From positions 1,907,422 to 1,971,421 of the forward strand of contig CP073341.1 in assembly GCA_018141785.1 (NCBI GenBank): DNA of 64,000 nucleotides, in the 5' to 3' direction. Shown piece after piece: positions 5,648-57,560 of this stretch. The notes under the pieces are model-generated. The model was not told where the DNA came from, did no database searches, and saw only the letters and a list, made by a program, of their open reading frames with translations. Origin of the DNA: Candidatus Paraprochloron terpiosi LD05 (lineage in GTDB: Bacteria; Cyanobacteriota; Cyanobacteriia; Cyanobacteriales; Prochloraceae). A program made the translations under genes and the position numbers. Each line of letters begins with the position of its first letter. The stretch's first letter is position 1.

Positions 5648-7007
5648 TGTTGGAGGCGGTCGCGACATAGAATCCACCGGTTTTGCCTGGTGGTCTGGAA
5701 ACGCCCGTCTGATTAATCTTTCCGGTAAACTGCTGGGTGCTCACGTCGCCCACGCAGGCTTAATCGTCTTCTGGGCTGGGGCTATGACTCTCTTTGAGTT
5801 ATCCCACTTGATTCCCGAAAAGCCCATGTACGAACAGGGCATTATTCTTCTTTCTCACATTGCCACCCTAGGTTGGGGTGTTGGTCCCGGTGGAGAAATA
5901 GTGGATACCTTCCCCTTTTTCGTCGTGGGTGTGGTTCACCTCATTTCCTCTGCTGTTCTCGGTTTGGGGGGTATTTATCACGCAGTTCGTGGTCCCGATA
6001 CTTTGGAAGAGTATTCCGACTTCTTCGGTTACGACTGGGCTGATAAAGACAAAATGACCAGCATTATCGGCTTCCACCTGCTCATGTTAGGGGGCGGTGC
6101 TTTGCTCCTGGTAGCTAAAGCCATGTTCTTTGGTGGTGTTTATGATACCTGGGCACCCGGTGGTGGAGACGTGCGGGTTATCACCAATCCTACCCTCAAT
6201 CCTGCCATTATCTTCGGCTATCTCATCAAAGCTCCCTTTGGTGGAGAAGGTTGGATCGTCGGCGTCAACAACATGGAAGACGTCATTGGTGGTCACATTT
6301 GGGTTGGTTTGATTTGCATCTCCGGGGGAGTTTGGCATATTCTCACCAAGCCCTTTGGCTGGGCACGTCGCGCCTTGATCTGGTCTGGGGAAGCTTATCT
6401 TTCCTATAGCCTAGGTGCTCTCTCCATGATGGGCTTCATTGCTTCCACCATGGTTTGGTTCAACAACACTGTTTATCCCAGCGAGTTTTTTGGACCCACT
6501 GGTATGGAAGCATCTCAGTCCCAAGCTTTCACCTTCTTAGTGCGGGACCAACGGTTGGGTGCAAACGTAGGTTCTGCTCAAGGTCCTACCGGGCTGGGTA
6601 AATACCTAATGCGTTCTCCTACTGGGGAAATCATCTTCGGTGGGGAAACCATGCGCTTCTGGGACTTCCGTGGTCCTTGGTTAGAACCTCTACGGGGTCC
6701 GAATGGTTTGGATCTGGACAAAATCAGAAATGATGTTCAGCCTTGGCAAGTTCGTCGCGGTGCGGAGTACATGACTCACGCTCCTCTGGGTTCTTTGAAC
6801 TCTGTGGGTGGAGTTATTACCGACGCTAACTCCTTTAACTATGTGTCTCCTCGCGCTTGGTTAGCCACTTCTCACTTCTTCTTAGGTTTCTTCTTCCTGG
6901 TAGGACACCTGTGGCACGCTGGTCGCGCTCGGGCAGCTTCTGCTGGGTTTGAGAAAGGTATTGACCGGGAGACGGAACCAGTTCTGTCTATGGATGACTT
7001 GGATTAA
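5631..7007 (+). CDS. psbC: Photosystem II CP43 chlorophyll apoprotein
   Basis: CP43 is the inner antenna protein of photosystem II and contributes ligands to the manganese cluster. I place the start at the GTG at 5631, giving [20 protein letters not shown], the usual cyanobacterial N-terminus. GAGGAGGT at 5614-5621 lies inside psbD at a proper distance. The frame is open further upstream (to 5553), but that part only shadows psbD. Six membrane helices are expected. The lumenal loop carries [14 protein letters not shown], with the Glu and Arg known to touch the Mn4CaO5 cluster. The C-terminus is PVLSMDDLD. Expression is coupled to psbD. Confidence 0.97.
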
Positions 7008-20173: not shown

Positions 20174-20248
20174 TGTCTGTTGTGAAGTTCAGAAACTTAA
20201 ATCACTAAATCCTGGCTGGTGCGTTATGGCGCTTTTGGCTAAAATGTC

Positions 20249-21062
20249 GAGATAGGTAGACCCTTACAGGTTTTCCCCCTCACAGTACCGGGCGTGCAAG
20301 TTTCCAAGCACCCGGCTCCTGGTGTATCATCTACTCAACTGGCGCGTTTACTCCTCATTACTTGTATCGGCTTTCAGGTCTCATTCAGATTGGGCTTTGA
20401 GTCCTTAAATTCCAACCTCCTCGCCATTGACGTTTGCCCGACGCCTCTAACTTATGAGGAGCTTTGAGTTTCAAGTTCCAACTTTTAGATTGCAAAATCG
20501 CAAGTGGTAAGGGATTTTACCGTTACGTTTCACCCTCTCCTACGTCAGCTCCCCTTTCGAGTAGACATTTGCCTATCTGCCGGGTTATTGATTCCCCTGA
20601 ACTTTCGTCCTAGCAGCGTTCGCTTCTTAGGAGAGTCCTGTCTCCCCTGGGAATTGGTTCGCTTTACAGCTTCCCTACTGATTTCTCAGACCCAGTGGAG
20701 GTTTACTCGTTCCACAGTAATTAGATACGTCTGACGGCGGGCTGCTCCATACCCCGGCGGCGTGGTGTCTACGCGATGACAGTTAAATTCCATCTTTCAC
20801 ATTTGTCGCTTACCGTTTTGGTTAGAGTGTAACAGTACCGCTTTCACTCTTCCTGCTTAACGAGGCTGCAAGCTTCGCTTTATGCTCACCATATCAGACT
20901 TTCCCTAGGCCGTTACCATTATCGGACTAATAGAAAACTTAGCCATTTAACCCTCTAGCTGTGAAACCCCCTCATTGCTGCTGGGGCTCCTTCGGGCGGG
21001 AACCGGGGAAGACACTCCCCATGGGGTTTTACCCACTAACTACTGCGACTTTCGAGCCGCAC
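20249..21062 (-). mobile_element. ORF-less group II intron
   Basis: On the minus strand the element begins GTGCGGCTCGAAAGTCGC at 21062, a GUGYG-type 5' end. It contains a 34-base domain V at 20318-20285 (GAGCCGGGTGC, a GAAA loop, then GCACGCCCGGTAC) followed by a domain VI-like hairpin. No reverse-transcriptase reading frame is present in the roughly 815 bases. The flanks carry GGTGCGTTAGGCGC on one side and GCGCCATAACGCACC on the other, so the insertion split a palindrome. The 3' boundary is approximate. Mobility would require an intron protein from elsewhere. Confidence 0.75.
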
Positions 21063-37224: not shown

Positions 37225-38562
37225 GTGCGGCTCGTTTCTTGTGAAAGTCGCGGCGTAAGCCAAACATAAGCAAGAGCCTGCTCAGGTGCGGCTGCACAGG
37301 AGCAGGGGTTTCCGGGACACCGTCTCCGATAATCTAAGGGGATGACCGAACCTTGACAACTGAATGAACTATGAGGGTGAAAGCCCCTCCCGTGAAGGAA
37401 TCACGTGAATCTTTATCTGGCCACTGTGAGGTTAATCACCAGGCAGAAGCTGGCAACAGGGCGGAACTGAAGCTATCGAGCGGTTCGATGGTAACACCGC
37501 TAACAAGGAGAACACCGGGATAACTTAAAGTGAATCATCTACGAAAAGACTTAAGGTAAGACACTGCCAAATCGCGTATTGCAGAAAAGATACCGAAAGA
37601 AACTCGCAAGGCCAATTGCTTGCACTTGCATTCCTGAGTTGGTAATAGGTCAATGGATGAGTCCCAAGGGTTCGTAACAATAGTTCGTTCGGAACGAGTA
37701 AAAACTCGCTCAACTTCCACAGAAACAGGGGATTCCAAGCCCAACCTGACTGCCGTGTGCGCAGGAGCAGGCATGTGAAGTGGTGGGGTCGCCGTCTTGG
37801 TGCGCTTTCCACCTCTCGCCATCCGCGATGCCGAGAGGTGGGTCGCACCGCTGATTAACGGCTTAACGGAAGGGCGAGGGTAAGAGAAGGCGTAACTGCC
37901 TGATGGTTTCTACAGAGAAGAGACCCAATGTAATTATCAGAGCGACTAAATGAGGTCAAAATTGTGAATATCACTAACCCGACTTCAATCGAATACCGCA
38001 GTTTAAAAGCCTTGAGGCTCCACTTAGCAGCATTCCTGCTAGCGGGGAAGATTGGCCGGAGGGCTGACGACGTCTGGCTATCAAGGGTAAACCCTTAGGA
38101 GCGGCTAAACGCCAGTTTACATCAAAGCAGATAGAGAAAGCTTTCCCAGAAGTTCCCTGGAAAGTCAATAACCACGTGATGGTTAAAGGTGATGCCTCAC
38201 CCTACAATGGGAACATTCCCTACTGGGTTGGTCGAAATTCCAAATTATATAATGGGCCAACTGCTGAAGCAATTAAGCGACAGAAAGGCATATGTCCGCA
38301 TTGCAACCGTAAGTTCATGGAGATAGACGGTGCCGTGGAGTTGCACCACATTGACGGTAACCATAACAACTGGAAACGTAAGAATCTAGTTGCCCTCCAT
38401 CGGGAATGTCATCAGGCGCAAGCGATATACCGCAAGCGCATTAAAGACGGACTCGTAAAACGCGCCGTAAAGGTGTAGAAGCACCTGAGCTGTATGAGGT
38501 GAAAGTCTCACGTACAGTTCGTAGGAGAGGGGCGGGGTGGTAACATCCCCCTCGACTCTAAT
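37225..38562 (+). mobile_element. Degenerate group II intron with truncated intron protein
   Basis: The element begins GTGCGGCTCG, a GUGYG 5' end. It ends with domain V (GAGCTGTATGAGGTGAAAGT...ACGTACAGTTC at about 38488-38522) and a domain VI hairpin GAGGGGCGGGG/CCCCCTC with a bulged A in GACTCTAAT. Its 1338 bases are too short for a full reverse transcriptase; only the C-terminal HNH part of the intron protein remains (38176-38478). Spliced exons join in frame, so the ribozyme may still be, or recently was, functional. Confidence 0.85.
38176..38478 (+). pseudogene. HNH endonuclease domain, remnant of a group II intron reverse transcriptase
   Basis: The frame contains HVMVKGDASPYNGNIPYWVG, then SKLYNGPTAEAIKRQKGICP and the HNH motif HHIDGNHNNWKRKNLVALHR with CPHC and CH zinc ligands. 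This is the C-terminal domain of group II intron-encoded proteins. The reverse-transcriptase and maturase domains are absent. The frame is open upstream to about 38068 (EKAFPEVPWKVNN), so the GTG at 38176 is an arbitrary start. It is unlikely to support mobility alone. Confidence 0.75.
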
Positions 38563-47831: not shown

Positions 47832-48105
47832 TCAAGCCCAAACAAAGCCTAAACTCGCTTTGTGAGCAGCAAACACGTCTCTATTGTCGGTCAGCCAATC
47901 AAACTTCAATAAATGTGTTCAAAGGTTGATTGGCCCATCGTCTTCGTAGTCCTCCCGTTAACTGATGCCAAAGGATAAAAGTATAGGCACAAAAGACTAA
48001 AATAAAATGACGAAGTAAACTTCTTTTATCTCGGACTTGGTATTCTCTAAAACCTAACCAGCCCTTAGCTTCTCGATAAAAAACTTCTACGGTTGTCTCT
48101 CTCAT
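47832..48105 (-). pseudogene. Transposase C-terminal remnant (DDE, IS4/IS701-like)
   Basis: The minus strand reads VEVFYREAKGWLGFREYQVR, then FILVFCAYTFILWHQLTGGL. After a frameshift, FDWLTDNRDVFAAHKASLGF ends at TGA 47832-47834. YREAKGWLGFREYQVRD is the conserved E-containing region of DDE transposases. The 5' part is missing and abuts the truncated hicB gene. Confidence 0.7.
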
Positions 48106-48382
48106 CGGAGCAACACAAACCTAAAACAAATGTCTTACAACGATTATACCCTAATTTGACTCCTGTTTTCGTTTGAGTCCCATTAGTTGGACTAATACCT
48201 TTTTCTTTGCAAACTTCTAGAAACACTTTTAATGAGTTCTTAAATTCTTCTCGAAGACTAGCAGGGTTGTCGCCGTAAAAATCAGCGCTTCCATTTAGTC
48301 CAAGGATTTCCCCTCGAAATAAATTCAGTTCAGGATCGTATTGGATCCTCGCTTTGTAACCATCTACTTCCATAATACTCAT
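48065..48382 (-). pseudogene. hicB: HicB-family antitoxin with C-terminal end replaced
   Basis: MSIMEVDGYKARIQYDPELN and FRGEILGLNGSADFYGDNPA then LREEFKNSLKVFLEVCKEKG match the partial RNase H-like HicB domain. After KGISP the sequence no longer follows the family; the usual DNA-binding HTH or RHH end is missing, and the frame runs on into the transposase remnant. ATG 48382 overlaps the hicA stop by four bases. The antitoxin's toxin-binding part may survive, but autoregulation should be lost. Confidence 0.75.
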
Positions 48383-48633
48383 GGTTTCACTTTCTTATCT
48401 TTAAACCACTTGCGAATGCTTGCAATTGCGCCTTTATCTGTATTTGGAGAGGGATGTGGTCTATGAAAAACTCGAACTTCGCCAAAAAGTACAACAGCTA
48501 CCCTTGAGCCAGCTCTTTTTGAAACTTCTGCTCCGAGAGCTTTAAACAAAGACTCAATATCTGTCCAAAGGATATTTCCGCTGATTGGTTGTTTGTAGAT
48601 TTGCTCTAGGGTTTTTTGGTGCTTACGTTTCAT
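48379..48633 (-). CDS. hicA: HicA-family toxin, second locus
   Basis: The 84-residue protein contains NILWTDIESLFKALGAEVSK, RAGSRVAVVLFGEVRVFHRP and HPSPNTDKGAIASIRKWF. This is the longer HicA subtype, in which GSR takes the place of GSH and the HRPHP segment is conserved. Gene order here is hicA then hicB, with ATGA overlap. The toxin frame is intact although the antitoxin gene is truncated. Confidence 0.8.
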   Translation of the reverse strand: MKRKHQKTLEQIYKQPISGNILWTDIESLFKALGAEVSKRAGSRVAVVLFGEVRVFHRPHPSPNTDKGAIASIRKWFKDKKVKP

Positions 48634-49182: not shown

Positions 49183-50031
49183 TTAGAAACCTTGACGATG
49201 GAAAAACTTTACAATTGCTTTTGTAATGTCGTCCTCCCAATGTTCCTGGGGATAGTGTTTCCCCTCTTCTAACTGCACCAATTCTATATTATCTTGCTTC
49301 CTGGCTAGGTTTTGGGCAGGCTTGGAGGGCAACCAGGGATCTTCCATTCCCCAAATAATCAGGGTGGGTTTGGTCCAGTTGCCAAACCCAGACTGGATTT
49401 CTGCCATAGATTGAGGTAATTGGAGGTTCTTCACTGTAGCAATGAGGGAACGTCCTGCAGCGGAAGTCTGAAGGAAGGGTTTGCGATAAATAGCTAAGTT
49501 GCGATCGCTAATAACGAAACCGCTTCCCTTTTCTAGGGAGCGATCCACCAACAGGGGATCTTGGGTGAGCATATCCCCAATTAATGGCCAACCCCACTGT
49601 TGCATTTGTCTGGGTAATTTAACCTCAGGGGATAGGGGAGCGTTGAGGATAGTTAAGCTTGCCACTTTGTCTGGGTGACGAAAAGCGTATTGAATGCCTA
49701 CGGATCCCAGAAATCCCTGTATAATCAGGTGACAGATTGGTATGGCTAGGGTTTCTAGGAAAGCTGCCAGAGCGTCTCTAAATGCATAGGGGGTGTAAGG
49801 AAAGTCTCTTCCATCTGATTTAGCTGAAAAGCCAAAACCGATCCAGTCTGGTGCTATTGCCCTATGTCCCCCCTGAGCTAATTTTGGCATGATTTCGCAC
49901 CAGCTATAACTGTGGGCAGGGATACCATGGAGGAGGATAATTGGGGGATTGTCACTCTCTTGGGAGGGGGTTGCTTCTTGATAAAACCATTTTAATGCCC
50001 CTACTTGGATGGTATTTTCTGCGATCGCCAC
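49183..50031 (-). CDS. Alpha/beta-hydrolase family protein, nucleophile not evident
   Basis: The fold is clear: PPIILLHGIPAHSYSW (oxyanion HG), APDWIGFGFSAK, and the C-terminal TLIIWGMEDPWLP (acid) and EGKHYPQEH (His), as in haloalkane dehalogenase-like proteins. At the nucleophile elbow the sequence is IIQGFLGSVG, where the family usually has QD or GxSxG. The Asp or Ser nucleophile is therefore Gly or shifted by two residues. Such a cyanobacterial subgroup may be non-hydrolytic. Length is 282 residues. psbQ follows on the same strand after 59 bases. Confidence 0.8.
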   Translation of the reverse strand: MAIAENTIQVGALKWFYQEATPSQESDNPPIILLHGIPAHSYSWCEIMPKLAQGGHRAIAPDWIGFGFSAKSDGRDFPYTPYAFRDALAAFLETLAIPICHLIIQGFLGSVGIQYAFRHPDKVASLTILNAPLSPEVKLPRQMQQWGWPLIGDMLTQDPLLVDRSLEKGSGFVISDRNLAIYRKPFLQTSAAGRSLIATVKNLQLPQSMAEIQSGFGNWTKPTLIIWGMEDPWLPSKPAQNLARKQDNIELVQLEEGKHYPQEHWEDDITKAIVKFFHRQGF

Positions 50032-50089
50032 GATTGTTTATTATTTCCTTTTTATAATATTATTATCCTATCGCTAAGCGCACCCTATC

Positions 50090-50460
50090 ACTAAGTCAGC
50101 ACCCCGCTCTGAAGAGACGGGGCTTCGAGCCTCCAACTTTAGGTAGCTGACCAGCCTAAGTCTTTACGAGGACTACGTTATTGGCAAGAGTTAAAGTTCC
50201 TACCTTGAGGTGCGTGCCAGCTTCAAGCTCTAGAACCGGATGGTTAAACAGTCTTACGAGGGGTAAGACAGTGCTGTCTGGATAGTACCGACCGATAACA
50301 TTGGCGAGGCAAACTTTACTCCAGAAATGGAGGTTTGGGGGATACAACAATTTCCCCCACCCCCGGCATCGATTGATGGCGGGGGTTTGACGGCGGTTAA
50401 AACCGCTCGTGTCGTAGTTCCTCCGCGCTTTAAAAAGACGCGGTTTCCCTACTCCCGTAT
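50090..50460 (+). ncRNA. Highly structured non-coding segment (HEARO/omega-RNA-like?)
   Basis: The segment forms many hairpins in a row: CCCCG/CGGGG (50102/50118), GTCTTAC/GTAAGAC (50251/50263), an alternative AGACAG/CTGTCT (50266/50274), CTCC/GGAG (50319/50329), a palindromic insert at 50352-50387, GCGGTT/AACCGC (50393/50401) and CCGCG/CGCGG (50423/50439). The last hairpins lie just before the ATG at 50468. The layout recalls RNAs upstream of IscB-type genes, but no IscB or TnpB is present. The open frame on the minus strand (50156-50350) is not trusted. The class assignment is uncertain. Confidence 0.35.
50352..50387. repeat. ATCGATTGATGG palindrome inside the structured segment
   Basis: CCCCCACCCCCGGCATCGAT followed by TGATGGCGGGGG. 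It is the divergent fifth member of the CATTAATCAATG palindrome family. Confidence 0.65.
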
Positions 50461-50467
50461 ATTTTTA

Positions 50468-50911
50468 ATGAATGCATTAGAACGAGCCAACAGCTTTAAT
50501 CTTACCACGAAGATTGCCACGGTAGTCAATTTATTTAAATCGGAGTTTCCCGACGCCAAAGCGGATCTCAAACCTTGGCAAAATGACGCTGACACTAGGA
50601 GTTTGGTGGATCCTGATTCTATTGATATCGGTTTTCACTTCCCCGGTTGGAGTAAACGGATCCAAAGTCGCAGTATCTTGGTGCAAATTCGTTTTCACGA
50701 AGATTCTTTAGATAAGAAACAGCGTCTTATAGGGGTGGAAACAGCAGGGTTTAACCTGACAGGACAAGTCTGGCGATTTTCTACTGTGGATCGCTGGGAA
50801 TGTTTGGGAGAATGTAAACCTGCTGCTGAGGTGAGAGAAAAACTCAAATCTTTCTGTCGCCAAGTTTTTGAGTTGTTTAAAGGAACCGCAGATAAACGCA
50901 GATTATTATAA
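50468..50911 (+). CDS. Conserved hypothetical protein, 147 aa
   Basis: ATG 50468 opens MNALERANSFNLTTKIATVV, with VDPDSIDIGFHFPGWSKRIQ, RSILVQIRFHEDSLDKKQRL and a C-terminal CRQVFELFKGTADKRRLL. It looks like a small soluble, beta-rich protein of unknown function. The frame is open upstream to 50327, but that part is the structured segment. The stop overlaps a small downstream frame (TAATG). Confidence 0.7.
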   Translation: MNALERANSFNLTTKIATVVNLFKSEFPDAKADLKPWQNDADTRSLVDPDSIDIGFHFPGWSKRIQSRSILVQIRFHEDSLDKKQRLIGVETAGFNLTGQVWRFSTVDRWECLGECKPAAEVREKLKSFCRQVFELFKGTADKRRLL

Positions 50912-51024
50912 TGGATATGATAGATTATTCTCGAACATGGAACCAATTATTACAGAAATTGTCGATGAAGTTGAGGAAACGGTTTACCGAAGGAGAAATC
51001 GCTCCGTCGATTAACAAGTCCTAA
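50911..51024 (+). CDS. Possible 37-aa small protein coupled by TAATG
   Basis: The ATG at 50911 shares the TAATG with the preceding stop and opens MDMIDYSRTWNQLLQKLSMK, LRKRFTEGEIAPSINKS. The overlap suggests translational coupling, but the peptide matches nothing I know. A second frame from about 50938 (MEPIITEIVDEVEETVYRRR) is equally plausible. Confidence 0.25.
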   Translation: MDMIDYSRTWNQLLQKLSMKLRKRFTEGEIAPSINKS

Positions 51025-53400: not shown

Positions 53401-54599
53401 CTAAATGTAAATTACAAGGATAAAAATCCTGACTCATCTTCCAAGACTAGGAAAGAGATAGATTCCGTGGTGTGCCAGATTTCACTATCCAGGGACTGCT
53501 CCTCCTGAACCGACACTCCAAACTCAGTGCTGGTGATACTGTCCAGACGGATATTGGCGGTATTTGGTCCGTAGTAGGAGCCTAGCTTGGCAATCACGGA
53601 AGGAGTAGAGTCGAACTCCTCAGAGAAGCTAACGGTGGAGCGAGAATGATTGTGTGCACGGCCAGTGGTACCCCCTTGTAGGAGGATGTCCCCATTTTCT
53701 GCCGCCCCCTGGTCAATGGCAAGCCAGCCGATAGTTTCCGTGGCATGACCACCATTATTACGGGCTTCTTCCTCCTGCATAGCTACCTGGAAGCTGTTAG
53801 AGGACTGCCCTTGAGTGCGAGTAGTCACCCAGTCACTTTCGTTAAAGGTTTGCACTTGGGTGAGGACAGTGGGGGTGCCGTCAAAGCCCGTCAGGTTAAT
53901 AGTTTCAAAGCCTGCGGGGGTAAGGCGATTTGAGCTGTGTGTGCCTGCTGATATGCGGGTGCCATCGGAAAGAGTCCAGTCTCCCGCTTCCATGACTAGG
54001 TAGGAGACGGATTCGTTCTTGTGCCAGCCGTCTTTGTAGTTGGGTTCCTGAAGTCGGAGTTGGAAACTGTTGGAGCCAACGTTCTGAAGGCGGATAACAG
54101 CAGGATGCCGGCCTTCAAAGGTGGGATCGCTAACGATTACTACAGGGTTGATGTAGGATTCATTAAGGTTAATGGTTTGCCACTCATGATTCAGGTTGTT
54201 GAGGGTTCCATATTCGCCGATGATATTTTTGAGGTTTACTGTAATCGTAGCATCATCGGTTTCTGAACCGTCACTTGCCTGGACTGTTATAGAGAGAGTG
54301 GGGTTGTTTTCGTAATCTAAGTCATTACTGTCATTCACCATTAGCTGGTTGCCTTGGAGCCCGAAGGCAGGAATGCCGTTGTTATTAGAGTCGAAGTTGT
54401 TGGTCATGGTGTAGGTGAGGTTATTTCCCTCAGCATCTGTGGCTTTTAGTCGGCTAATTACAGTATTGTTGGGGCTGTTTTCCGCAAGGGTGAAGGTTTG
54501 GTTATTGAAGATGGGAGCTTCATTTGCGGGCGGGATGCCGATTTCTTCATTGTGGGGGCTGTTTTCCGTGGAAGCATTATTGAAAAAATCATTTGTAAA

Positions 54600-55865
54600 G
54601 GGAGTGGCGAAACCTACTACACCAGAAGAGAGGCGGTCAGCCACTGCGCTGCTGTTACCACCGTTAGCCCCCGTCACCCCAAGTAACCACAGAGCCATTC
54701 TCTTTCAGGGCTGCAAAAGCATTATCTGTAGAGAATATTTGGGTAACCCCCTCTGTGAGGCTCTCAGACACGGCGCTGCTGTTACCACCGAAGTAGCCTA
54801 CCCCAAGTAACAACAGAGCCATCGTCTTTCAGGGCTGCAAAGGCACTCTCTGTGGAGAATATTTGAGTAACCCCTTCTGTGAGGCTCTCAGACACGGAGC
54901 TGACTGTTACCACCCTGCTGCTGCTACCCCAAGTAACCACAGAGCCATCTGTCTTTCAGGGCTGCAAAGGCACTCTCTGTAGAGAATATTTGGGTAACCC
55001 CTTCTGTGAGGCTCTCAGCCACGGCGCTGCTGTTACCACCGTTTGCAGGCCAACCCCAAGTAACCACAGAGCCATCGTCTTTCAGGGCTGCAAAGGCAGT
55101 CGCTGTGGAGAATATTTGAGTAACCCCTTCTGTGAGGCTCTCAGACACGGAGCTGCTGTTACCACCGTAGCGGCTGTGACCCCAAGTAACCACAGAGCCA
55201 TCCTCTTTCAGAGCTGCAAAGGCAGTCGCTGTGGAGAATACTTTCGTTAACCCCTCTGAGAGATGGCTGGTCAGCCAGGCTGCTGTTACCACCGTAAATG
55301 CTGCTAACCCCAAGTAACCACGGAGCCATCCTCTTTCAGGGCTGCAAAGGCACTCACTGTAGAGAATATTTGGGTAACCCCTCCTGTGAGCTGGTTGGCC
55401 ACCCGGCTGCTGTTACCACCCCGCCCCCGTGACCCCAAGTAACCACAGAGCCATCCTCCTTCGGAGGGCAGCAAAGGCATACCTTGTAGAGAATATTTGG
55501 GTAACCCCCCTGAGAGCTGGTTGGCCACCCGGCTGCTGTTACCACCGTTAACGACATGACCCCAAGTAACTACGGAGCCATCCTCTTTCAGGGCTGCAAA
55601 GGCATTCCTCTGTAGAGAATATTTGAGTAACTCCTCCTCTCGAGCTGGCTGGCCACCCGAGCTGCTGTCACCACCCACCAGACTGGTCACCCCAAGTAAC
55701 CACAGAGCCATCGGCTTTCAGAGCTGCAAAGTCACCCCATTCGTTGGAGAATATTTGGGTAACCCCTCCCTTCGAGCTGGCTGGCCACGGAGCGGCTGTC
55801 ACCACCACCAGCCGCTGTCACCCCAAGTAACCACAGAGCCATCCTCTTTCAGGGCTGCAAAGGCC
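54600..55865 (-). repeat. RCC1-like tandem repeat array A
   Basis: About ten units of roughly 120-126 bases carry GAGAATATTTGGGTAACCCC, GTTACCACC and CCAAGTAACCACAGAGCCAT (plus strand). Unit lengths differ by amounts that are not multiples of three, so each indel shifts the frame. Units here diverge more from one another than those of array B. Confidence 0.85.
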
Positions 55866-56299
55866 CAATGCTATTTTTATACTCACCACCACTTCTGCCA
55901 AAATAAGAACGACGGTTAGGAACAGCTGTCACTCCCTCAGCGGAGATAATCACCTCAGCCCTATCTTCCCCTGGAGTAAGACGGTAACTGCTTCTCGATT
56001 GGAGGATAGCCAAAATGTTGTCATAGGAATCTACCACCTCGTCAGCTAGAGTGGGGAGATTGAGAGTAGCTGTGGCGCTGCCAGCAGCAAAGGTGACAGT
56101 GAGGGTATTATTCTCTCCCAGGGATGCTGTGTAGTCGGCTCCGGCTTTAGCTGTGCCCTGGAGCAATAAGTTTACTGTCAACTCAGAATCCAGATTCCCT
56201 GTGCGGGTTAGGGTAAAAATACTAGGGGATAAGTTATTTTCGCTGCCTGCTTGGGTTGCGCTGATAGATATAGAAGGAATTCCATTGAAAGAATCATCT

Positions 56300-57560
56300 G
56301 TAAAGGGGGTGGCGAAACCTACTACACCAGAAGAGAGGCTCTTAGCCACGGAGCTGCTGTTACCACCATTGGTGCTGTCAACCCCAAGTAACCACAGAGC
56401 CATCCGTCTTTCAGAACTGCAAAGGCACTCCCTGTAGAGAATATTTGGCTAACCCCTTCTGTGAGGCGGTCAGCCACTGCGCTGCTGTCACCACCTTCGG
56501 TGTTGTTACCCCAAGTAACCACAGAGCCATCCTCTTTCAAGGCTGCAAAGGCAGCCCTTGTAGAGAATATTTGGGTAACCCCTTCTGTGAGGCGGTCAGC
56601 CACTGCGCTGCTGTTACCACCGTTGGTGTTGTCACCCCAAGTAACTACAGAGCCATCCTCTTTCAGAACTGCAAAGGCACTCCTTGTAGAGAATATTTGG
56701 GTAACCCCTTCTGTGAGGCGGTCAGCCACTGCGCTGCTGTTACCACCGTTGGTGTTGCTACCCCAAGTAACCACAGAGCCATCCTCTTTCAGGGCTGCAA
56801 AGGCAAACCCTGTAGAGAATATTTGGGTAACCCCCCTGAAAGTTGGTTGGCCACGGAGCTGCTGTTACCACCCCAGCTACCCCAAGTAACCACAGAGCCA
56901 TCTTCTTTCAGAGCTGCAAAGGCACACCCTGTAGAGAATATTTGGGTAACCCCTTCTGTGAGGCTCTCAGACACGGAGCTACTGTTACCACCGTAGTGGC
57001 TTAAACCCCAAGTAACCACAGAGCCATCATCTTTCAGAACTGCAAAGGCAAACTCCTTGTAGAGAATATTTGGGTAACCCCTTCTGTGAGGCTCTCAGAC
57101 ACGGAGCTACTGTTACCACCGTTGGTGTTGTCACCCCAAGTAACCACGGAGCCATCATCTTTCAGAGCTGCAAAGGCAAACCCTGTAGAGAATATTTGGG
57201 TAACCCCTTCTGAGAGGCGGTCAGCCACTGCGCTGCTGTTACCACCGTTGGTACTGCTACCCCAAGTAACCACAGAGCCATCATCTTTCAGAGCTGCAAA
57301 GGCATCCCTGTGTAGAGAATATTTGGGTAACCCTTCCTGTGAGGCGGTCGGCCACGGAGCTGCTGTTACCACCTGCGCGTGCTGCTACCCCAAGTAACCA
57401 CAGAGCCATCATCTTTCAGAGCTGCAAAGGCACTCCCTGTAGAGAATATTTGGGTAACCCCTTCTGTGAGGCAGCTCGGCCACGGAGCTGCTGTTACCAC
57501 CTTCGGAGCTGTCACCCCAAGTAACCACAGAGCCATCCTCTTTCAGAACTGCAAAGGCAC
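56300..57560 (-). repeat. RCC1-like tandem repeat array B
   Basis: About ten units. Successive GAGAATATTTG positions (56563, 56689, 56815, 56934, 57062, 57188, 57315, 57442) give spacings of 126, 126, 119, 128, 126, 127 and 127. Together with its flanking Calx-beta domain this array repeats the layout of array A, showing a duplication of about 1.7 kb. Confidence 0.88.

Follow-up and report, generated by a model that had tools for sequence, protein, structure and literature searches.

The hairpin-rich region directly ahead of a 147-aa gene in the window (the whole 64-kb stretch of DNA analyzed here) is, with a probability of roughly two in three, a non-autonomous (ORF-less) IS200/IS605 element of the IscB family that is mobilized and retained in trans. 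HEARO RNA is the omega-RNA of IscB and IsrB, and a covariance-model scan found one HEARO RNA (RF02033) in the whole window, at 50095-50319 on the + strand. The match scores 157.2 bits against a gathering score of 83 and covers the model in full length, from position 1 to 211 of 211. The initial annotation had named an orphan guide-type RNA among its options and had held that the lack of a covariance-model match or of conserved copies would speak against it. The full-length match lies above the cut-off and copies occur both in the same genome and in its relatives, so that this option is upheld and both objections fall away. The parts of the element and its surroundings are the following:

49183-50031, - strand: left neighbor, an alpha/beta hydrolase gene bordering the same intergenic region (Pfam Abhydrolase_1; order the same in the genome G001)
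50078-50094, + strand: putative guide, the host sequence directly 5′ of the omega-RNA scaffold, of which 17 nt are given (after the IscB/IsrB omega-RNA architecture)
50095-50319, + strand: HEARO (RF02033) omega-RNA scaffold, full length, starting at the left end GTCAGC (cmscan)
50095-50151, + strand: left-end terminal stem GTCAGC...GCTGAC with an inner hairpin (scan and fold)
50320-50467, + strand: right part with further hairpins, without IscB; the match to the right-end model extends as far as the junction 50467/50468 (nhmmer)
50360-50385, no strand assigned: dispersed repeat palindrome CCCCCGGCATCGATTGATGGCGGGGG inside the element (genome matches)
50423-50443, + strand: right-end subterminal hairpin CCGCGCTTTAAAAAGACGCGG (fold)
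50468-50471, + strand: ATGA, the target tetranucleotide and putative target-adjacent motif, together with the downstream start codon
50468-50911, + strand: host gene, a conserved cyanobacterial protein of 147 aa whose function is not known (36 of the 40 genomes searched, own genome included)

The element folds more stably than shuffled versions of its sequence. The minimum-energy model of 50095-50467 has 11 hairpin loops and an energy of -137.4 kcal/mol. A total of 100 dinucleotide shuffles averaged -115.5 kcal/mol (sd 5.7; z = -3.83), and none of them folded as well. Comparative structure from an alignment of seven elements gave 72 consensus pairs, and in 25 of these at least one sequence has changed on both sides with the pairing kept. 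The dense hairpins pointed out in the initial annotation are thus real features of the sequence, within slightly wider limits than proposed (50095-50467 instead of 50090-50460), and the order it described, a structured RNA followed by a hypothetical gene with its ATG at 50468 and no matching nuclease gene adjoining, is correct. So is its repeat palindrome inside the region, a dispersed repeat with at least 24 further matches in the same genome that is also present in the copy L008. The palindromic unit CCCCCGGCAT...GGCGGGGG occurs in several HEARO elements.

A repeat search with default settings found no repeats within 49900-50700, and copies were therefore sought genome-wide. The genome of the window (G000; 3.84 Mb, a single contig) has 13 HEARO matches, 11 of them over the cut-off, and the window scaffold has the second-highest score of the 13. 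Some of these copies lie ahead of iscB; others are without iscB and have a common right-hand extension. Two sets of copies were assembled. Set 1 comprises 111 HEARO copies from eight genomes: 13/13 from G000, 31/37 from G001 (a genome of the same genus), 7/13 from G002, 20/28 from G004, 19/21 from G033, 11/21 from G025, 5/5 from G039 and 5/6 from G011. Set 2 comprises 40 copies, with 15/15 from G162, 14/15 from G169, 6/7 from G150 and 5/14 from G003. A trait of the HEARO family, an HNH/RuvC (IscB/IsrB) gene directly downstream, is absent at the window copy. Copies were read in 12 genomes, and ORF-less ones occurred in 11 of these (all except G039); an IscB/IsrB gene was therefore not treated as required for membership of the family.

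The history of these ORF-less copies was followed on a tree of 99 scaffolds, 40 with and 59 without iscB, after omission of 12 of the 111 rows. The ORF-less label changes 12 times on this tree, compared to a mean of 31.5 for shuffled labels, and the ORF-less copies are therefore neither a single lineage nor the product of random losses. A supported clade of 33 rows contains ORF-less copies only (98/90); the window copy lies outside it and pairs with the ORF-less copy L154 of another family (99/89). As read from the tree, iscB has been lost repeatedly, and some ORF-less lineages have spread. In one copy (L007), the part to the right of the HEARO RNA is replaced by sequence resembling the start of a group II intron.

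GTCA is the first tetranucleotide of the left end in 140 of 151 copies. For the right end, a model of the last 42 nt was built from 24 copies, which were picked by eye at a visible RTGA and lean towards start codons, and all 111 copies of set 1 were searched with it. RTGA (ATGA or GTGA) lies within 3 nt of the predicted junction in 64 of 66 right ends in set 1, and in 40 of the 42 that did not serve as seeds, where 4% would be expected by chance. The remaining 47 copies of set 1, without an RTGA-bearing right end (contig ends, divergent or decayed copies), stand outside the start-codon counts given below, and L142 was left out as it has no left flank. Copies were counted as IscB-coding when the distance from the HEARO RNA to the right end exceeded 1000 nt, and as ORF-less otherwise. 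The same right-end model matched 23 ORF-less and 2 IscB-coding copies of set 2 (15 copies had no match), and RTGA was present at 21 of the 23 ORF-less right ends. The window copy, which is not among the seeds, matches the right-end model with 26.6 bits (nhmmer), and its RTGA lies 1 nt away from the junction that the model predicts. Sequence homologous to G001 begins again at 50466, two bases ahead of the ATG. The right end of the window copy has drifted, yet is recognizable.

Comparison with sister genomes indicates that such elements insert precisely. Fourteen insertions, chosen mainly among start-codon cases, were searched for in sister genomes, and ten pairs could be compared. In four of the ten, the joined flanks align continuously with the sister sequence: at hemC (L120/L185; 98.5% over 550 bases, gap-free across the joint), at a phycobilisome-protein gene (L121/L187; 94.4% through the joint), and in the pairs L009/L201 (95.0% through the joint) and L008/L203 (98.6% over 284 bases through the joint). 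These four insertions are precise, lack a target duplication and lie directly before ATGA. The L118 pair reaches across the joint with poor similarity on the left side, and the other five pairs gave no alignment through the joint. At the window copy the target motif is seen, and in G001 both flanks of the locus are homologous, with the gap between them occupied by a different element, so that this locus offers no clean empty site for comparison. The element in the G001 gap holds a 403-aa ORF that we take to be TnpB-like (L084, G001:C553, 1205-2416, - strand). Two types of RNA-guided-nuclease element thus seem to have struck the same intergenic gap, one in the genome of the window and the other in G001.

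In many copies, as in the window, the RTGA at the right junction is the start codon of the next gene. Start codons were called by a rough criterion, an ORF of at least 60 codons for which the joined site offers no start further upstream than 15 codons. By this measure, 27 of 42 ORF-less copies of set 1 have an RTGA with which the next gene begins in sense orientation. The seeds are biased in this respect (19/24, against 8/18 for the other ORF-less copies of set 1), and the fairer figure is therefore 18/39, which adds the ORF-less copies of set 2 (10/21; the IscB-coding copies gave 0/2) to those of set 1 outside the seeds. Among all RTGA sites of the window, 81 of 913 meet the same criterion, as do 27 of the 237 that are preceded by non-coding sequence (11%), a background that includes spurious ORFs. 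The excess has a p-value of 6e-8, which is nominal because the copies are related. IscB-coding copies of set 1 are found at start codons in 9 of 21 cases, and the difference from the ORF-less copies (27/42) is not significant (p = 0.12). A dependence on host promoters was considered as the cause of the ORF-less excess over IscB-coding copies and rejected, as this comparison gives no indication that ORF-less copies have a particular need of a host promoter. The start-codon excess itself may reflect targeting, retention or survival.

Of 29 proteins scanned downstream of ORF-less copies of set 1, 24 reached the Pfam cut-off, and these include porphobilinogen deaminase, apocytochrome f, a SufBD protein, TatA, a PurT-type ATP-grasp enzyme, an OppC-type permease, rubredoxin and a GHMP kinase (thrB-like). 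The rubredoxin start codon carries a HEARO element in two genera (L096, L127), and a gene that we take to be sqdB-like (Pfam Epimerase for L126) has also been struck in two genera (L126, L345). Because the elements at each gene are of different sequence type, these insertions are probably independent. At the rubredoxin locus of two further genomes (L189 in G000, L193 in G002), about 70 extra bases lie between ATGA and the alignable coding sequence, at the point of the G001 insertion, and are possibly the trace of a lost element. The genome of the window also has an internally deleted HEARO element (L012, 1501-1693; 34 bits, below the cut-off) that ends ...AAGGGAGTTGCTC before ATGA, the start codon of a gene that is presumably sigma-factor-like.

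A ribosome-binding site supplied by the element was considered as a general cause of this placement. In the 63 right ends of set 1, the sequence before the junction pairs with the anti-Shine-Dalgarno (anti-SD) sequence at a median of -6.1 kcal/mol, compared to -2.5 for random window sequence, -3.0 for the native left flanks and -1.7 for the starts, as called mechanically, of the window's long ORFs. An SD-like sequence is present in at least half of the ORF-less or IscB-coding copies in seven of the eight set 1 genomes, all but G001, where the feature is weak. The 23 right ends of set 2 have no SD-like feature (median -1.9; p = 0.43 against random sequence) and are placed alike at start codons, while the window copy has CCCGTATATTTTTA before its ATG, which scores +0.5 kcal/mol with the anti-SD and contains no SD-like core. 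The SD-like sequence is therefore not the general reason for start-codon placement, and the proposal was rejected; only certain lineages supply a ribosome-binding site. Copies L346-L350 and others from G162, G169 and G150 have right ends of the form ..CTTACCGCGTATTCTT before ATGA, at start codons and without an SD-like core.

The placement could also be a matter of survivorship alone, in which insertion would occur at any RTGA, insertions within genes would be purged, those at start codons would survive and the RNA would be in disuse. We regard this as possible and as a serious competitor, though not the account we would choose. It fits the 13 of 43 ORF-less copies that lie at an RTGA without a 60-codon ORF, two of which seem to lie within ORFs (L109, L006), and it fits the SD-like right ends of most set 1 genomes. 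It accords less well with the comparison to RTGA sites that follow non-coding sequence, at which purging should be slight and start codons are nonetheless much rarer (27/237) than among the copies outside the seeds (18/39), or with the compensatory changes by which ORF-less copies have kept their scaffold.

Mobilization and retention in trans would call for a transposase and a nuclease encoded elsewhere. Two full-length IscBs of 423 and 425 aa (L010 and L013) are found elsewhere in the genome of the window, with RRXRR and HNH domains and with their RuvC/HNH motifs in place; L010 is related to solved IscB structures, and L013 is preceded by a partial HEARO match only. In the tree, the scaffolds of L010 and of a further iscB locus, L001, lie outside the 68-row clade of the window copy (98/100). 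With these two scaffolds outside the clade and that of L013 partial, an IscB of the same genome is no more than a candidate partner. The genome also has nine Y1-transposase matches, several of which are fragments. The ends of the element showed no similarity to those of four TnpA loci (L080 in this genome and L081-L083 in three others). A transposase with shared ends was thus rejected for these four, which include one of the nine matches.

Some of these observations, namely the three iscB genes of the same genome that are truncated or broken (L001, L003, L005) and the drifted right end of the window copy with no SD-like core, are what a dead remnant with no function left would present. This reading is doubtful in view of the scaffold, which is of full length and second in score among 13, and of the two ends, both of which can be recognized. 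The IS remnant suggested by the initial annotation stands in part, as an ORF-less mobile element, and fails as a scrap of one.

The last of its suggestions was a leader regulating the 147-aa gene. The protein has no Pfam or NCBIfam match, and its ATG is conserved as a start codon in several orthologues. Upstream of this ATG, the frame runs without a stop codon across the right end as far as another ATG at 50327 (50327-50911, + strand), and a product of 194 aa is therefore possible. A domesticated, cis-acting structured 5′ UTR would agree with the position and sense orientation of the element and with sequence prediction, which finds no terminator-like site on the + strand inside it. However, no HEARO match was obtained at the same gene in any of 29 other relatives' loci (three of which have only 221, 455 and 766 bases upstream), so that one of 30 orthologous loci, the window's own, carries it, and the copies elsewhere adjoin functionally unrelated genes. 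The element is therefore not a conserved regulator of this gene, and a conserved leader was rejected; the position ahead of the gene is what stands of the suggestion, and domestication at this one locus is quite unlikely. Sequence prediction also gave no sigma-70-like promoter on the + strand of 49950-50950.

Several other features of the window were seen in passing. An IsrR antisense RNA (RF01419, 160 bits) lies at 6036-6222 (- strand), and two group II intron matches (RF00029) lie at 20246-20320 (- strand) and 38485-38562 (+ strand). A HicA-like toxin gene (Pfam HicA_toxin; 48379-48633, - strand) is followed by a possible partner ORF (48065-48382, - strand), the end of which overlaps a short ORF without a Pfam match, possibly a transposase remnant (47899-48105). 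A run of ORFs at 53412-56403 (- strand) with repeated VTWG..GGNSS motifs and with Calx-beta, bacterial-Ig and weak cadherin matches resembles a fragmented large repetitive protein.

The guide of an omega-RNA lies 5′ of the scaffold, a position held in the window by host sequence that ends at 50094. When this guide followed by NTGA was searched for as a 21-mer with up to 3 mismatches, the one match in the genome was its own left border, where GTCA stands in place of NTGA. A second genomic target was thus rejected at this threshold, and since the sole match bears GTCA for NTGA, the site would be targeted when empty and spared when occupied. The target motif of IsrB was measured as NTGA for DtIsrB and NTG for four other IsrBs, including one from C. 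watsonii and one from Dolichospermum (PMC9581776), and the RTGA at the right junction agrees with it. An omega-RNA acting with a non-cutting IscB as an RNA-guided repressor in trans, like the TnpB-derived TldR, would account for a guide-bearing scaffold without its own nuclease, and is very improbable given the missing second site and the catalytic motifs kept in L010 and L013.

As a non-autonomous IscB-family element mobilized and retained in trans, the window element would have been moved by a Y1 transposase acting in trans and choosing RTGA. Its RNA would be transcribed in sense orientation together with the host gene, from the promoter of that gene, so that the leader of this gene would serve as the guide. 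The omega-RNA would be loaded by an IscB encoded at another place in the genome, which would cut only the empty allele, in which the guide is followed by NTGA; the occupied site would escape, since the element puts GTCA in the place of NTGA. The cut, element-free copy of the chromosome would then be repaired with the element-bearing copy as template. Landing on the start codon would leave the coding sequence whole, and in most set 1 genomes the right end adds an SD-like sequence 4-8 nt from the junction that would aid translation, a form of help that is not general and is absent in the window copy.

A broader reading would make start-codon-landing, RNA-guided elements with an RTGA target a homing drive anchored at genes that the host cannot lose. 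The element would insert between the leader and the coding sequence of a core gene with the protein unbroken, and would have its guide RNA transcribed from the promoter of the host, whose leader would act as the guide; an IscB in trans would convert element-free copies. In some lineages, a ribosome-binding site at the right end would replace the translation signals of the gene. We put this forward as a speculative and rather unlikely extension.

The element resembles known systems in some respects and departs from them in others. It is like other HEARO RNAs in its full-length match to the model, its 5′ guide position and the RTGA on its right side, and HEARO elements were reportedly placed at ATGA/GTGA sites by Weinberg and colleagues in 2009. 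Unlike them, it has no IscB/IsrB gene, and its RTGA is the start codon of the host, as in many sister copies. With non-autonomous IS200/IS605 elements, it shares the lack of an ORF, the hairpin ends and, in sister copies, precise insertion free of duplication. Mobilization in trans is presumed for these elements and for stand-alone omega-RNAs, which are said to have been described by Altae-Tran and colleagues in 2021. What sets it apart is how often the copies lie at the start codon of a core gene, a habit of which we found no description for such elements. In comparison to the IsrB/IscB OMEGA systems (DtIsrB, CwIsrB, DsIsrB), it shares the NTGA/NTG target-adjacent motif (PMC9581776) and has IscBs with RRXRR and HNH domains elsewhere in its genome, whereas the window RNA stands alone and would need a nuclease supplied in trans. 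Its anatomy would be compatible with a 5′ guide of an omega-RNA directing IscB to guide plus target-adjacent motif. A gene-drive effect of TnpB, or retention of insertion sequences, has been reported on plasmids (PMC11870625). The logic proposed here is alike, in that the guide records the site and the nuclease cuts element-free copies; that work concerns TnpB and plasmids, whereas an IscB in trans and the chromosome would be involved for the window element. A study of Limnospira disregarded HEARO RNAs, taking them for post-mobility intron remnants, and called for an examination of their precise location (PMC8400943).

The family of the RNA, its association with IscB and the NTGA target motif are already known. 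Start-codon placement of HEARO/IscB elements did not come up in a limited literature search, which covered passages of three papers (PMC9755519, PMC9581776, PMC8400943), and may nonetheless be in print. The start-codon habit may be a variant of the ORF-less HEARO element that is possibly new. Cas9 and its guides probably descend from IscB and its omega-RNA, and the copies collected here form a sizeable natural set of stand-alone omega-RNAs with a defined genic position, some with precise empty sites, that adjoin core metabolic and photosynthetic genes. For annotators, they show that a HEARO element can part a core gene from its native leader. The set makes it testable whether IscB can serve RNAs that are encoded elsewhere, and whether a motif that coincides with the start codon is favored for non-destructive residence at genes.
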